In this document: positions 26,083-30,582 of the stretch, piece after piece
Numbering within the stretch: the stretch's first letter is position 1
Layout of the letters: each line of letters opens with the position of its first letter
Assembly (NCBI RefSeq): GCF_004346195.1
Contig: NZ_SMAK01000010.1
Location: forward strand, 1 to 64,000
DNA from: Tepidamorphus gemmatus
GTDB lineage: Bacteria; Pseudomonadota; Alphaproteobacteria; Rhizobiales; Tepidamorphaceae
Direction: 5' to 3'
Length of the DNA: 64,000 bases
The notes under the pieces: generated by a model
What the model was told of the DNA's origin: nothing
The model's database searches: none
What the model saw: the letters and a program-made list of their open reading frames with translations, nothing else
Position numbers and translations under genes: made by a program

Positions 26083-26322
26083 TCAGCGTCCGCCATGACC
26101 GGACGCACCGAACCCACGGGCATCCGACGCCGAGGCCTGCATGAGGCAGCGCGACAGACCGATATCGTCCAGCATCCGATCGTCGAGTCGGCTCAGTTCC
26201 TGCAGCGCGCGCCGCATGCGCGAAAATCGGCGGACGCGATCGAACGCCGACCTCGCCGCGGTCATCAGTGCCTCCCCAACACGGGGCGCCGGCCTCTCCG
26301 TAGGCAGGTCTTCCGCGGTCAT
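26083..26322 (-). CDS. DUF1127 small protein
   Basis: A 79-residue protein with the arginine-rich DUF1127 core: RMRRALQELSRLDDRMLDDI, then GLSR. DUF1127 proteins in alphaproteobacteria are small RNA-binding or regulatory proteins linked to phosphate, stress and colony morphology. A strong AAGGAG precedes the ATG at 26322. The longer frame to 26739 has no supporting features. It is divergent from the sit operon across a 461-bp region. Confidence 0.8.
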   Translation of the reverse strand: MTAEDLPTERPAPRVGEALMTAARSAFDRVRRFSRMRRALQELSRLDDRMLDDIGLSRCLMQASASDARGFGASGHGGR

Positions 26323-26710
26323 TCCACGCTCCTTGACGGGTTTGCCTGCGACCGGCGCGACGAGGAACCAACGGCCACGCCATCGCATGGCATCCGGTGT
26401 AGGGAGCCGACATGTCCGGGATACGTCGCGGGCATGTCGCCGACCGCGCCGAAGGTTTCGATCGTATCGGGAGAATTTCAGGAGACCTGCGGTTGCACCT
26501 GGCGCCGGCGATGCCTTCCGCTGCCGCGATAGGTCCGGTCCCGTCCGGCATGGCGATGGCGAACGCGACCCGCCCGCCGGTCGAGGCGACCCGCGACATG
26601 GCTTGATCCGCAGCGTCTGTCTGGAAGTGCGGGCCGCGGCCGATCGGCGCCCAGACGACGGTGCCAGGGCGGCAAGCGCGACAGGGACAGCGGCAGCTGT
26701 CACGTCTAGA

Positions 26711-26727
26711 ATGCGAATGAGTTGCAA
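26711..26727. promoter_or_regulatory. Mur/Fur-like operator 1 of the sit operon
   Basis: ATGCGAATGAGTTGCAA, an imperfect inverted repeat of TGCRA around five bases. It covers the predicted -35 box. It matches 13 of 17 positions of the perfect copy at 26748 and fits the TGCAA-N-TTGCA pattern known for the alphaproteobacterial manganese regulator Mur. Confidence 0.7.
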
Positions 26728-26749
26728 TTGCGGAAGCAAGCGCTATATT
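26722..26749 (+). promoter_or_regulatory. Promoter of the sit operon
   Basis: TTGCAA at 26722-26727 and TATATT at 26744-26749 are separated by 16 bases, a good sigma-70 arrangement. Transcription would begin near 26756, leaving a leader of about 27 bases before the ATG at 26784. Confidence 0.65.
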
Positions 26750-26764
26750 GCGAATGGATCGCAA
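26748..26764. promoter_or_regulatory. Mur/Fur-like operator 2 of the sit operon
   Basis: TTGCGAATGGATCGCAA, a perfect inverted repeat TTGCGA-N5-TCGCAA. It spans the end of the -10 box and the predicted start of transcription, 37 bases from operator 1. Confidence 0.72.
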
Positions 26765-26783
26765 CTGCGTGCGGGATGAGAGC

Positions 26784-27689
26784 ATGGCCTCGCCGTCAAT
26801 GACGTTAGCCGCCCTCGCGCTTGCGGCGGTGATCGCAGCCGCGCCCGGAAGAGCGGGCGCGGCCGAGGACGATCGTTTCAAGGTCATCACCACCTTCACC
26901 GTCATCGCCGACATGGCCCGCAACGTCGCCGGAGATGCGGCGACGGTAGACTCCATCACCAAGCCCGGCGCCGAGATCCACAATTACCAGCCGACGCCCG
27001 GCGACCTTCTCAAGGCGCAGGATGCCGACCTGATCCTCTGGAATGGACTCAACCTGGAACTGTGGTTCGAGAAGTTCTTCCGCAACCTAAGGGACGTGCC
27101 GGCTGCGGTGGTGAGCGAGGGCATCGAGCCACTCGGCATCGCCGAGGGGCCGTATCGGGGCAAGCCCAATCCACATGCCTGGATGTCGCCGAGCGACGCG
27201 CTCGTCTATGTCGACAACATCGCCGCCGCCTTCGCGCGGCACGATCCCGATAATGCGGCGACCTACCGGGCGAATGCGGAGGCCTACAAGCAGACGATCA
27301 CCGAGACCATCGCGCCGATCCGCGCCCGCCTCGATGCGATTCCGCAGGAGCGGCGCTGGCTGGTCACCAGCGAGGGTGCGTTCAGCTATCTGGCACGCGA
27401 CTTCGGGCTGAAGGAACTGTATCTTTGGCCGATCAACGCGGACCAGCAGGGAACCCCGCAACAGGTGCGCAAGGTGATCGACGCGGTGCGGCAGCACGGC
27501 ATTCCGGTGGTGTTCTCCGAGAGCACGGTCTCCGACCGGCCGGCGCGCCAGATCGCCCGCGAGACCGGTGCGGCATATGGTGGCGTGCTCTATGTCGACT
27601 CGCTGAGCGAGCCGGACGGGCCAGTACCGACCTATCTCGACCTGCTGCGGGTCACCACCGAAACGATCGCCGAAGGGCTGACGAAATGA
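26784..27689 (+). CDS. sitA: Mn/Fe ABC transporter substrate-binding protein (SitA/MntA type)
   Basis: Periplasmic metal-binding lipoprotein-class (cluster 9) protein of 301 aa with a Sec signal ([20 protein letters not shown]). The four metal ligands expected for the Mn/Fe branch are visible: His66 (EIHNYQPTP), His131 (NPHAW), Glu197 (SEGAF) and Asp272 (YVDSLS). There is no histidine-rich loop, which argues for Mn/Fe over Zn. The start at 26784 is preferred because the ATG at 26754 would lie at the transcription start within operator 2. It overlaps sitB by ATGA. Confidence 0.92.
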
Positions 27690-28612
27690 CCTGCGCCGCC
27701 ACGCCCGTGACGCTGCGGGCAGATGCGCCGGCGGGCGCATCGGCAGGAGAGCCGGCGCCTGCGCCGGACAGCGGCATAGCGGTCAACGGCGTCACCGTCA
27801 CCTATCGCTCCGGAGTCAGCGCGCTGCGCGATGCGACCTTCGCGATCCCGACCGGCACCATCACCGCGCTGGTTGGCGTCAACGGCTCAGGCAAATCGAC
27901 CCTGTTCAAGGCGATCATGGGCTTCCTGCGCACGGCGCGTGGCAGCATCACGGTGCTCGGCCGGCCGGTCGAGGCAGCGCTGAAGGCCAATCTCGTCGCG
28001 TATGTGCCGCAGGCCGAGGAGGTCGACTGGAGCTTCCCCGTCCTCGTCGAGGATGTGGTGATGATGGGCCGCTACGGGCGCATGAACATGCTGCGCATCC
28101 CCCGGGCGGCAGACCGCGCCGCGGTCGCCGACGCGCTCGACAGGGTCGGCATGACCGAGTTCCGCCGGCGGCAGATCGGCGAACTGTCGGGCGGTCAGAA
28201 GAAGCGGGTGTTCCTCGCCCGTGCGCTGGCCCAGGATGCCCGCGTCATCCTGCTCGACGAGCCGTTCACCGGCGTCGACGTCAAGACCGAGGAGGCGATC
28301 ATCGCGCTCCTGCGCAACCTGCGCGAGGAAGGCCGGGTGATGCTCGTCTCCACCCACAATCTCGGTTCGGTCCCCGATTTCTGCGACCGCACCGTGTTGC
28401 TGCGCAACACGGTGCTGGCCTACGGCCCGACTTCGCAGGTGTTCACCCAGGCCAATCTCGAGCGCGCCTTCGGCGGCGTGCTGCGGCACTTCCCGCTGGG
28501 CGGCACCGATCCCGCCGGCCAGCAGGCGGTGGGGGTCATCACCGACGACGAGCGGCCCTTCGTGGTCTATGGCGAGGGCACGGCCGGGGAGAGAGCGGAG
28601 CGCCCGCGTTGA
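27686..28612 (+). CDS. sitB: Mn/Fe ABC transporter ATPase (SitB type)
   Basis: ATP-binding subunit of 308 aa. Walker A is GVNGSGKST, the Q-loop is [14 protein letters not shown] as typical for SitB/MntB, the signature is LSGGQKKR, Walker B is RVILLDEPF and the H-loop VSTHNLG. The [19 protein letters not shown] text is diagnostic of the Mn/Fe branch. The start overlaps sitA (ATGA). The C-terminal 45 residues are an extension beyond the usual end. Confidence 0.93.
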
Positions 28613-29466
28613 CCGACCTGCTGCTCGAACCGTTCCGCTACGGCTACATGGTCAACGCCATGTGCGTCGGGGCGCTGGTCGGGGCGGTCTGTGCCTTCCT
28701 GTCGGCCTTCCTGATGCTGAAGGGCTGGTCGCTGATCGGCGACGCGCTGTCGCACTCGATCGTGCCCGGCGTCGCCGGGGCCTACATGCTGGGACTGCCC
28801 TTCGCGCTCGGCGCGTTTCTCGCGGGCGGACTGGCGGCCGGTGCCATGCTGTTCCTCAACCAGCGAACCCGGCTCAAGGAGGACGCGATCATCGGGCTGA
28901 TCTTCACCTCCTTCTTCGGTCTTGGCCTGTTCATGGTGTCGCTGTCGCCGGCCTCGGTGAACGTGCAGACCATCGTGCTCGGCAACATCCTGGCGATCAC
29001 GCCGGAGGACACGCTGCAGCTCGTCGTCATCGGCACCATCTCGCTCGCCGTGCTGATCGTGACGTGGAAGGACCTGATGGTCACCTTCTTCGACGAGGGC
29101 CACGCCCGCTCGATCGGTCTCAACCCGCCGCTGCTGAAGACGGTGTTCTTCACGCTGCTGGCAGCCTCGACGGTGGCAGCCTTGCAGACGGTCGGCGCCT
29201 TCCTGGTGATCGCCATGGTGGTGACGCCGGGCGCCACCGCCTACCTGCTCACCGACCGGTTCCCCAGGCTGATCGCCCTCGCCGTGGCGATCGGAGCGGG
29301 GGCCTGCTTCCTGGGGGCCTATCTCAGCTACTTCCTCGACGGGGCGACCGGCGGCATCATCGTCTGTCTGCAGACGGCAGTGTTCCTCGCTGCCTTCTTG
29401 CTCGCTCCCAAGCATGGTCTCCTCGCCGCACGGCGGCGTGCGGCGCGTGTGGCGGCGGCACCATGA
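28609..29466 (+). CDS. sitC: Mn/Fe ABC transporter permease (SitC type)
   Basis: An ABC-3 family permease of 285 aa with about eight hydrophobic segments. It begins [15 protein letters not shown] and has the family motif [20 protein letters not shown]. The reading frame opens with TTG at 28609, which overlaps the sitB stop as TTGA; a purine-rich GGGGAGAGAGCGGAG lies just upstream. An ATG start would cut off the conserved N-terminus, so TTG with translational coupling is likely. It overlaps sitD by ATGA. Confidence 0.9.
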
Positions 29467-30296
29467 CCCAATTCATCGCCGATCCGCTGATGCCGCTGCG
29501 CTTCGAGTTCATGCGCTACGCGCTGGCGATCGCGGTGCTCGTGGCGGTGCCGACAGCGCTGCTGTCCTGCTTCCTCGTGCTCAAGGGCTGGTCGCTGATG
29601 GGCGATGCGGTCTCGCACGCGGTGCTGCCCGGTGTGGTGCTGGCCTATATCGCGGGCCTGCCGCTCGGCGTCGGCGCCTTTGCCGCGGGCATGGGCTGTT
29701 CGCTGCTCACCGGCTGGCTCGACGCCAACAGCCGCATCAAACGCGACACGGTGATGGGCGTCGTGTTCTCCGGCATGTTCGCGCTCGGCCTGGTGCTGTA
29801 CATCCGCATCGAGACCGATGTCCATCTCGACCATATCCTGTTCGGCGACATGCTCGGCGTCGGGCCGGCCGACCTCCTGGAATCGGGGATCATCACGGCA
29901 GTCGTCGCCGGCATCCTTCTGCTCAAGTGGCGCGACTTGCTGCTGCACGCCTTCGACCCGACGCAGGCGCGGGCGATGGGCCTGCCTGTGGGCCTGCTGC
30001 ACTACGGGCTCCTGGCGATCCTGTCGCTGACGATCGTCGGGGCGCTGAAGGCGGTCGGCATCATCCTGGCCATCGCCATGCTGATCGCGCCGGGCGCCAT
30101 CGCCTTCCTCATGATGCGCTCGTTCGGCGCAATGCTGGGCGCGGCGGTCATCGTCGCCGTCGTCTGCTCGCTCGCCGGCGTCTATGCGAGCTTCTTCATC
30201 GATTCGGCCCCCGCGCCGACCATCGTGCTGCTGATGACGGCAGTGTTCGTCGCGGCATTCGTCCGGACGGTCCGCATGGCACAGGCGGCAGGGTGA
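29463..30296 (+). CDS. sitD: Mn/Fe ABC transporter permease (SitD type)
   Basis: The second ABC-3 permease, 277 aa, a paralogue of SitC. The shared motif reads LVLKGWSLMGDAVSHAVLPG, and other hallmarks are IRIETDVHLDHILFGDMLG and LHYGLLAILSLTIVGALKAVG. It ends one base before the stop of the convergent broken gene at 30297. The whole operon should be repressed under Mn (or Fe) sufficiency through the two operator copies upstream of sitA. Confidence 0.92.
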   Translation: MTQFIADPLMPLRFEFMRYALAIAVLVAVPTALLSCFLVLKGWSLMGDAVSHAVLPGVVLAYIAGLPLGVGAFAAGMGCSLLTGWLDANSRIKRDTVMGVVFSGMFALGLVLYIRIETDVHLDHILFGDMLGVGPADLLESGIITAVVAGILLLKWRDLLLHAFDPTQARAMGLPVGLLHYGLLAILSLTIVGALKAVGIILAIAMLIAPGAIAFLMMRSFGAMLGAAVIVAVVCSLAGVYASFFIDSAPAPTIVLLMTAVFVAAFVRTVRMAQAAG

Positions 30297-30582
30297 CTAC
30301 AATCCCAGGAACTTGAAGGGCTCGGCCTCGACGAAGCGGTCCGAGACATCGCCGGAGAAGAGGTCGGTCTGGTCGGGGCCGAGATCGAGGGTCGTCACCT
30401 TGCCGGTCCGCGGCGACAGGTCGACCTTGCTCAGGTCCACCCAGCTCAGGTCCGCCCAGAAGAGGTTCGGCTCAGCGCCGATTCGCAGAAGCAGCGCTTG
30501 CGCTTCAAGTCGGCGACGGTGCGACCGTCGCGGCGAGTGCGATGGCGAGCGCCGTGATGGCGGCGGCCGGACGATGTCGCAT
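30297..30582 (-). pseudogene. Broken small secreted-protein gene (frameshift after the signal peptide)
   Basis: A well-placed ribosome site (GGGAGGG) and ATG at 30582 start a signal-peptide-like frame (MRHRPAAAITALAIALAATV) that stops after 25 codons. Another frame, open from the same region to a stop at 30297, encodes a protein-like tail, TGKVTTLDLGPDQTDLFSGD, ending FVEAEPFKFLGL. The two pieces look like one small secreted protein split by an indel near 30500. A repeated-looking acidic stretch (WADLSWVDLSKVDLS) lies between. No family recognised; a sequencing error is a possible alternative. Confidence 0.35.

Follow-up and report, generated by a model that had tools for sequence, protein, structure and literature searches.

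The 64,000-nucleotide stretch of Tepidamorphus gemmatus DNA analysed here (the window) encodes a SitABCD-like metal transporter preceded by two similar palindromes, and the question raised by this locus is which regulator, responding to which metal, would act at them. The palindromes are very probably the operators (boxes) of the genome's Fur/Mur-type repressor, such that Mn2+-loaded Mur would block the polymerase and keep sitABCD off until Mn2+ falls. The operon has the SitABCD gene order, in which a binding protein and an ATPase are followed by a pair of ABC-3 permeases:

26784 to 27689, plus strand: sitA, encoding a 301-aa ABC-transporter protein that binds metal (ZnuA/SitA family), with ATG 26784 as the preferred start
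27683 to 28612, plus strand: sitB, an ABC ATPase (PF00005)
28609 to 29466, plus strand: sitC, an ABC-3 permease (PF00950)
29460 to 30296, plus strand: sitD, an ABC-3 permease (PF00950), with a start picked by the analyst within a longer open frame

The best NCBIfam matches of SitA are the Mn/Fe protein EfaA and the Zn protein AztC, both under cut-off. The SitABCD cargo may be Mn2+/Fe2+ rather than Zn2+, for which the best argument is the 76% identity to the sitA locus of Rhizobium leguminosarum 3841. Upstream of sit, on the minus strand at 26083-26322, there is a small divergent open frame, a segment of which we take to resemble DUF1127.

The putative boxes and the promoter elements predicted around them are as follows:

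26684 to 26712, plus strand: possible second promoter GGGACA-17-TAGAAT, a consensus match only, whose start would fall in box 1
26711 to 26727, no strand assigned: putative Mur box 1 (operator 1), ATGCGAATGAGTTGCAA, with TTGC directly after it; 28.0 bits with the matrix described below
26722 to 26727, plus strand: predicted -35 hexamer TTGCAA, the right arm of box 1
26744 to 26749, plus strand: predicted -10 hexamer TATATT, its last two bases common to box 2
26748 to 26764, no strand assigned: putative Mur box 2 (operator 2), TTGCGAATGGATCGCAA, a perfect TTGCGA-N5-TCGCAA, 28.9 bits, spanning the predicted transcription start

An earlier note on this DNA described a perfect and an imperfect 17-base palindrome 37 bp apart, and direct reading of the sequence bears this out: box 2 matches 12/12 arm bases of TTGCGA-N5-TCGCAA and box 1 matches 10/12, with 37 bp from start to start and 20 bp in between. 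Both boxes are contained in a 27-nt direct repeat, 78% identical, the copies of which lie 37 apart. The promoter TTGCAA-16-TATATT matches the consensus at 9/12 positions with a 16-bp spacer, and would place the transcription start at about 26756, within box 2. The proposal that the boxes lie on the -35 and the -10 therefore holds only in part: box 1 contains the -35, but only two bases of the -10 fall within box 2, which instead spans the expected start.

The direct repeat could also be taken as a duplicated unit of a -10 and a box, with one promoter per box: P1 (GGGACA-17-TAGAAT) would start in box 1, and P2 (TTGCAA-16-TATATT) in box 2. P1 and P2 are among only three promoter-like sites in 26300-30500 on both strands (0.5 expected), but they are consensus matches only, and just 2/69 relatives' boxes have an abutting -10-like hexamer, so that the feature is not conserved; this arrangement is rather doubtful. 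Among relatives' promoters more generally, the -10 is less clear by eye in L010 and L011 than in the window, and TTGAC occurs within 16 bp after 18/69 boxes, so that in those relatives the box would immediately precede the -35 rather than sit on it. One further locus, L128 (G002:C2:231108), located upstream of a non-orthologous binding protein, has, in this order, a box, TTGACT-18-TATAGT and a second box-like palindrome, which is the same layout around a promoter.

The position of box 2 bears on the start codon of sitA, which the earlier note had placed at 26784 and not at 26754. The in-frame starts are TTG 26748, ATG 26754, GTG 26769, ATG 26784 and ATG 26799, with anti-Shine-Dalgarno duplex energies of -3.5, +0.1, -3.1, -4.1 and -1.5 kcal/mol, respectively. 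ATG 26754 lies inside box 2, at about the predicted transcription start, and is without a ribosome site. The best ribosome site is that of 26784, yet it is weak beside those of L010 (-6.6 kcal/mol) and L011 (-8.5 kcal/mol). In these two loci, which have an orthologous sitA and two boxes, the ATG is located 16-17 bp past box 2, behind GGAG; ATG 26784 is located 19 bp past box 2. A small point against 26784 is the lack of a lysine or arginine ahead of the hydrophobic stretch in the protein begun there. Nevertheless, both the duplex energies (-4.1 versus +0.1 kcal/mol) and the L010/L011 spacing support the placement in the note, and ATG 26784, despite its weak ribosome site, appears to be the better start.

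Could palindromes of this kind arise by chance in a GC-rich genome? In the window, a loose consensus (three mismatches or fewer) gives 31 sites where 33 are expected, and there is thus no enrichment. The perfect palindrome has a single occurrence in the 3,775,092-base genome, and an R/Y form with one mismatch finds six places, two of which are the sit pair; the other four (L002, L003, L004 and L119) are within long open frames and were taken as chance. Because a reversed control pattern at the same stringency finds eight places in the genome, the site count alone proves nothing, and the real support for the boxes is their position and their conservation.

Conservation was assessed upstream of sitA orthologues, comprising 21 relatives' loci at 65-77% identity besides the window and the best 80 of 587 further matches, 62 of which were classed by the analyst as alphaproteobacterial and 18 as others; the 62 and the 21 together form a set of 83 alphaproteobacterial loci, with the window left out. 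A match of at least 11/12 to TTGCRA-N5-TYGCAA within 250 bp upstream is found at 41 of the best 80 of 587 loci, where shuffled sequences would give 0.15. The 62 alphaproteobacterial loci account for all 41; none of the 18 others reaches 11, and one reaches 10. Across the 83 alphaproteobacterial loci, 53 reach 11/12 and 77 reach 10/12 upstream, compared to zero and three, respectively, in the in-gene control. At the 10/12 level a match is present in 62/62 alphaproteobacterial loci of the best-80 set; however, in L106 it lies only at the gene start, with none in the upstream stretch, and in L099 at -8, and because of these two loci and the 3/83 in-gene stretches that reach 10, this level was not relied on.

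A matrix was then built from 62 distinct 21-mer boxes upstream of alphaproteobacterial sitA, each with a match of at least 11/12 and with the window excluded. It is not wholly independent or blind, because the relatives' boxes were collected with a consensus taken from the window's box plus R/Y; what it tests is recurrence at orthologous promoters. Box 2 (28.9 bits) and box 1 (28.0 bits) score inside the training range of 20.1-40.6 bits, whereas the next best place in the 64 kb scores 6.9 and a simulated first-order sequence of 3.84 Mb has zero places at 28 bits or more. With leave-one-locus-out matrices at 14 bits, at least one box is detected upstream of the gene in 80/83 alphaproteobacterial loci and at least two in 36/83, and the same matrices give a box inside the gene in 0/83 loci and none in shuffled upstream stretches, so that placement in a metal-transporter promoter is itself conserved. 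When each region's own base composition is used, the corresponding counts are 76/83 and 25/83, and at 18 bits they are 67/83 and 17/83. Neighboring boxes in relatives have spacings of 22 to 66, mostly 29-31, 36-41 and 45-55, and 35/69 relatives' boxes have TTGC directly after them, as box 1 does.

Among the genomes of the window's own family that have an orthologous sitA, L010 and L011 have a box pair at spacings of 40 and 37, respectively, and L021 has one box at 11/12 or better. The three alphaproteobacterial loci with no box detected upstream of sitA are L024, L026 and L028; L026 belongs to the window's family (G001, sitA orthologue at 68%), has no box in 270 bp upstream and comes from a genome that is 74% complete. 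Among the non-alphaproteobacterial loci, 4/18 have one box at 14 bits and 0/18 have two. The four (L083, L084, L089 and L117), with single hits of 17-23 bits, speak against a strict alphaproteobacterial limit and are perhaps ordinary Fur boxes; with own base composition the count becomes 2/18, and at 18 bits 0/18.

The earlier note had also proposed a scan of the genome for the motif. A genome-wide scan with a profile made from the aligned boxes of the matrix, in which 150/304 first-look candidates were scored, returns only the two sit boxes, each on both strands, with E-values (0.08 to 0.35) that are weak because the profile is short. Chance, for which the background-level count of the three-mismatch motif in the window and the equally common reversed R/Y control might speak, is ruled out by how widely the boxes recur ahead of sitA; the matrix scores and the profile scan also stand against it, and its probability is negligible.

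With the palindromes taken as operators, the candidate regulators are the three FUR-family proteins in the genome. One is Irr (217 bits, cut-off 150), and another is nearest to Zur but under cut-off (128 bits versus 167). The third is the single Fur/Mur-type repressor, found on contig C3 (locus L005, 1459-1887). Its best PDB matches are 5fd6 and 5fd5, with 105/141 residues (74%) identical to 5fd6, followed by the 4ray/4raz group (1.2e-59 for 4ray), while its best NCBIfam name is Fur, at 107 bits and under the curated cut-off of 146. The record title of 5fd6 is ferric uptake regulation protein, and we take this entry to be Rhizobium leguminosarum Mur; the 4ray/4raz group presumably represents the Magnetospirillum Fur structures of the PMC4506495 paper. 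A comparison of metal- and DNA-contact residues found 15 of the 16 Fur residues compared to be identical in the C3 repressor, the exception being a minor-groove lysine that is replaced by arginine (K to R). Five of these 16 are E81, H87, H88, D89 and E101. The others, K15, T17, Q19, R20, H33, T54, Y56, R57, H90, E108 and H125, are named in the structural paper (PMC4506495), and the shift of three between its numbering and that of the C3 repressor is the analyst's reading of the alignment. This FUR-family protein is thus close to the Rhizobium protein and keeps the contact residues, in line with membership among the Mur proteins.

There are 0 matches to PF02742 (DtxR/MntR) in the genome at E 0.001, although 11/14 control genomes have a match, and control of sit by a DtxR-family MntR was rejected because the genome is without such a match. 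Similarly, there is no match to PF01566 (Nramp/MntH) in the genome, and a second Mur target at mntH was rejected for that reason. The palindromes might instead be operators of Zur, Irr or an MntR-like protein, given that the genome encodes Irr and a Zur-like protein and that Pfam places SitA in the ZnuA family. However, the boxes match both the co-crystal operator of a close Fur homologue and those of the Mur-regulated R. leguminosarum locus, and there is no PF02742 match, which makes any of these three factors very improbable. The description of the boxes as Mur-like in the earlier note stands, given the relatives' matrix, the conservation upstream of sitA, the presence of one Fur/Mur-type repressor with no PF02742 match and the near identity to the co-crystal operator.

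A more serious alternative leaves the boxes and the protein unchanged, but makes the regulator an iron-sensing or dual-metal Fur, with sit under Fe2+ as much as Mn2+. In the structural study, Magnetospirillum Fur with Mn2+ occupies TTGCAAATCATTTGCAA, which is the feoAB1 operator in slightly changed form, and in that species the same box thus controls an iron gene; furthermore, the repressor is called Fur by NCBIfam (107/146 bits) and 4ray is a close match (1.2e-59). Against this, the profile scan gives sit alone, unlike a global iron regulon, although with 150/304 candidates scored weak boxes may escape, and Irr is present at 217 bits (cut-off 150). Irr usually handles iron in these bacteria. 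Control by iron to the same extent as manganese is possible but unlikely, and Mur may respond to Mn2+ rather than Fe2+, since the hits of the profile scan (150/304 candidates scored) are confined to sit.

The boxes, their conservation and the repressor gene with its conserved contact residues are observed; how a manganese-responsive Mur, the favored regulator, acts on them (its binding, the repression, its use of Mn2+ and where transcription starts) is inferred. When Mn2+ is sufficient in the cytoplasm, one metal-loaded Mur dimer would occupy each box, hiding the -35 at box 1 and the transcription start at box 2, so that RNA polymerase could not bind and sitABCD would be off; a dimer on either box would exclude the polymerase. 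When Mn2+ falls, Mur would lose its metal and leave both boxes, and the transporter would be made. More tentatively, and with no great likelihood, Mur could be a one-target switch, with sitABCD as its sole strong target and no MntH, with duplicated promoters, each made of a -10 plus a Mur box, that between them govern the entire Mn supply, and with the box kept across the order at unrelated metal ABC transporters that replaced Sit.

Profile scans covered all 61 genomes of the relatives' set, with the coordinates linking hits to genes copied by hand; in 22/61 genomes a sitA-like match is preceded by a hit at a distance of 38-226 bp. In 10 of these 22 (G002, G003, G006, G014, G025, G045, G047, G049, G050 and G060), the match is only 26-32% identical to SitA and belongs to another branch of binding proteins, a pattern that looks like a change of transporter behind a retained operator. 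Profile hits at E 10 are found in 7/8 family genomes. Two further hits in family genomes lie away from sit, L134 (G007:C416:29796) and L131 (G003:C72:4868); L134 is directly upstream of an open frame that, judged by eye, begins in TAT-like fashion, contains a His/Met-rich stretch and perhaps encodes a copper oxidase. If the exchanged transporters carry Mn, the operator and regulator would persist through transporter replacement. The locus yields a clean prediction of Mn control for an uncharacterised alphaproteobacterium, and the 62-box matrix is usable across the alphaproteobacterial group.

Several of these features have counterparts in known systems. Two Mur-responsive sites at R. leguminosarum sitA were reportedly footprinted in 2004-2005. 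R. leguminosarum 3841 (Rhizobium johnstonii 3841, L040) has an orthologous sitA (76%) under a Fur-family Mur, and two matrix boxes upstream of it (24.9 and 20.9 bits). However, the boxes are spaced 54 apart there and 37 in the window, where they are of the G/C form (TTGCGA/TCGCAA) and closer to sitA, and the window's genome differs from that of strain 3841 in being without an Nramp/MntH match. In strain 3841, sitA expression is low with Mn2+ and high without it, and in a mur mutant it stays high under both conditions (PMC5575495); according to a review, the Mur corepressor is Mn2+ (PMC3788343). In Magnetospirillum gryphiswaldense, the regulator of feoAB1 is a Fur that is a close homologue of the repressor in the window's genome, and its operator in the Fur-Mn2+-feoAB1 complex, TTGCAAATCATTTGCAA followed by TTGC, fits the relatives' consensus; the DNA in the crystal with Mn2+-Fur includes TTGCAAATCATTTGCAATTGC and departs from the natural site at three base pairs (PMC4506495). 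That system differs in having an iron-transport gene, one box and altered crystallised DNA. Finally, the sitA promoter of Rhodobacter sphaeroides contains a Mur box and is Fur/Mur dependent, but the study describes one almost perfect box between the -35 and the -10, and reports that Fur/Mur is required for strong sitA induction under Mn limitation, which does not fit simple repression (PMC6956336). Twin Mur boxes are a known design, and the pair in the window is an ordinary, well-conserved example of it.
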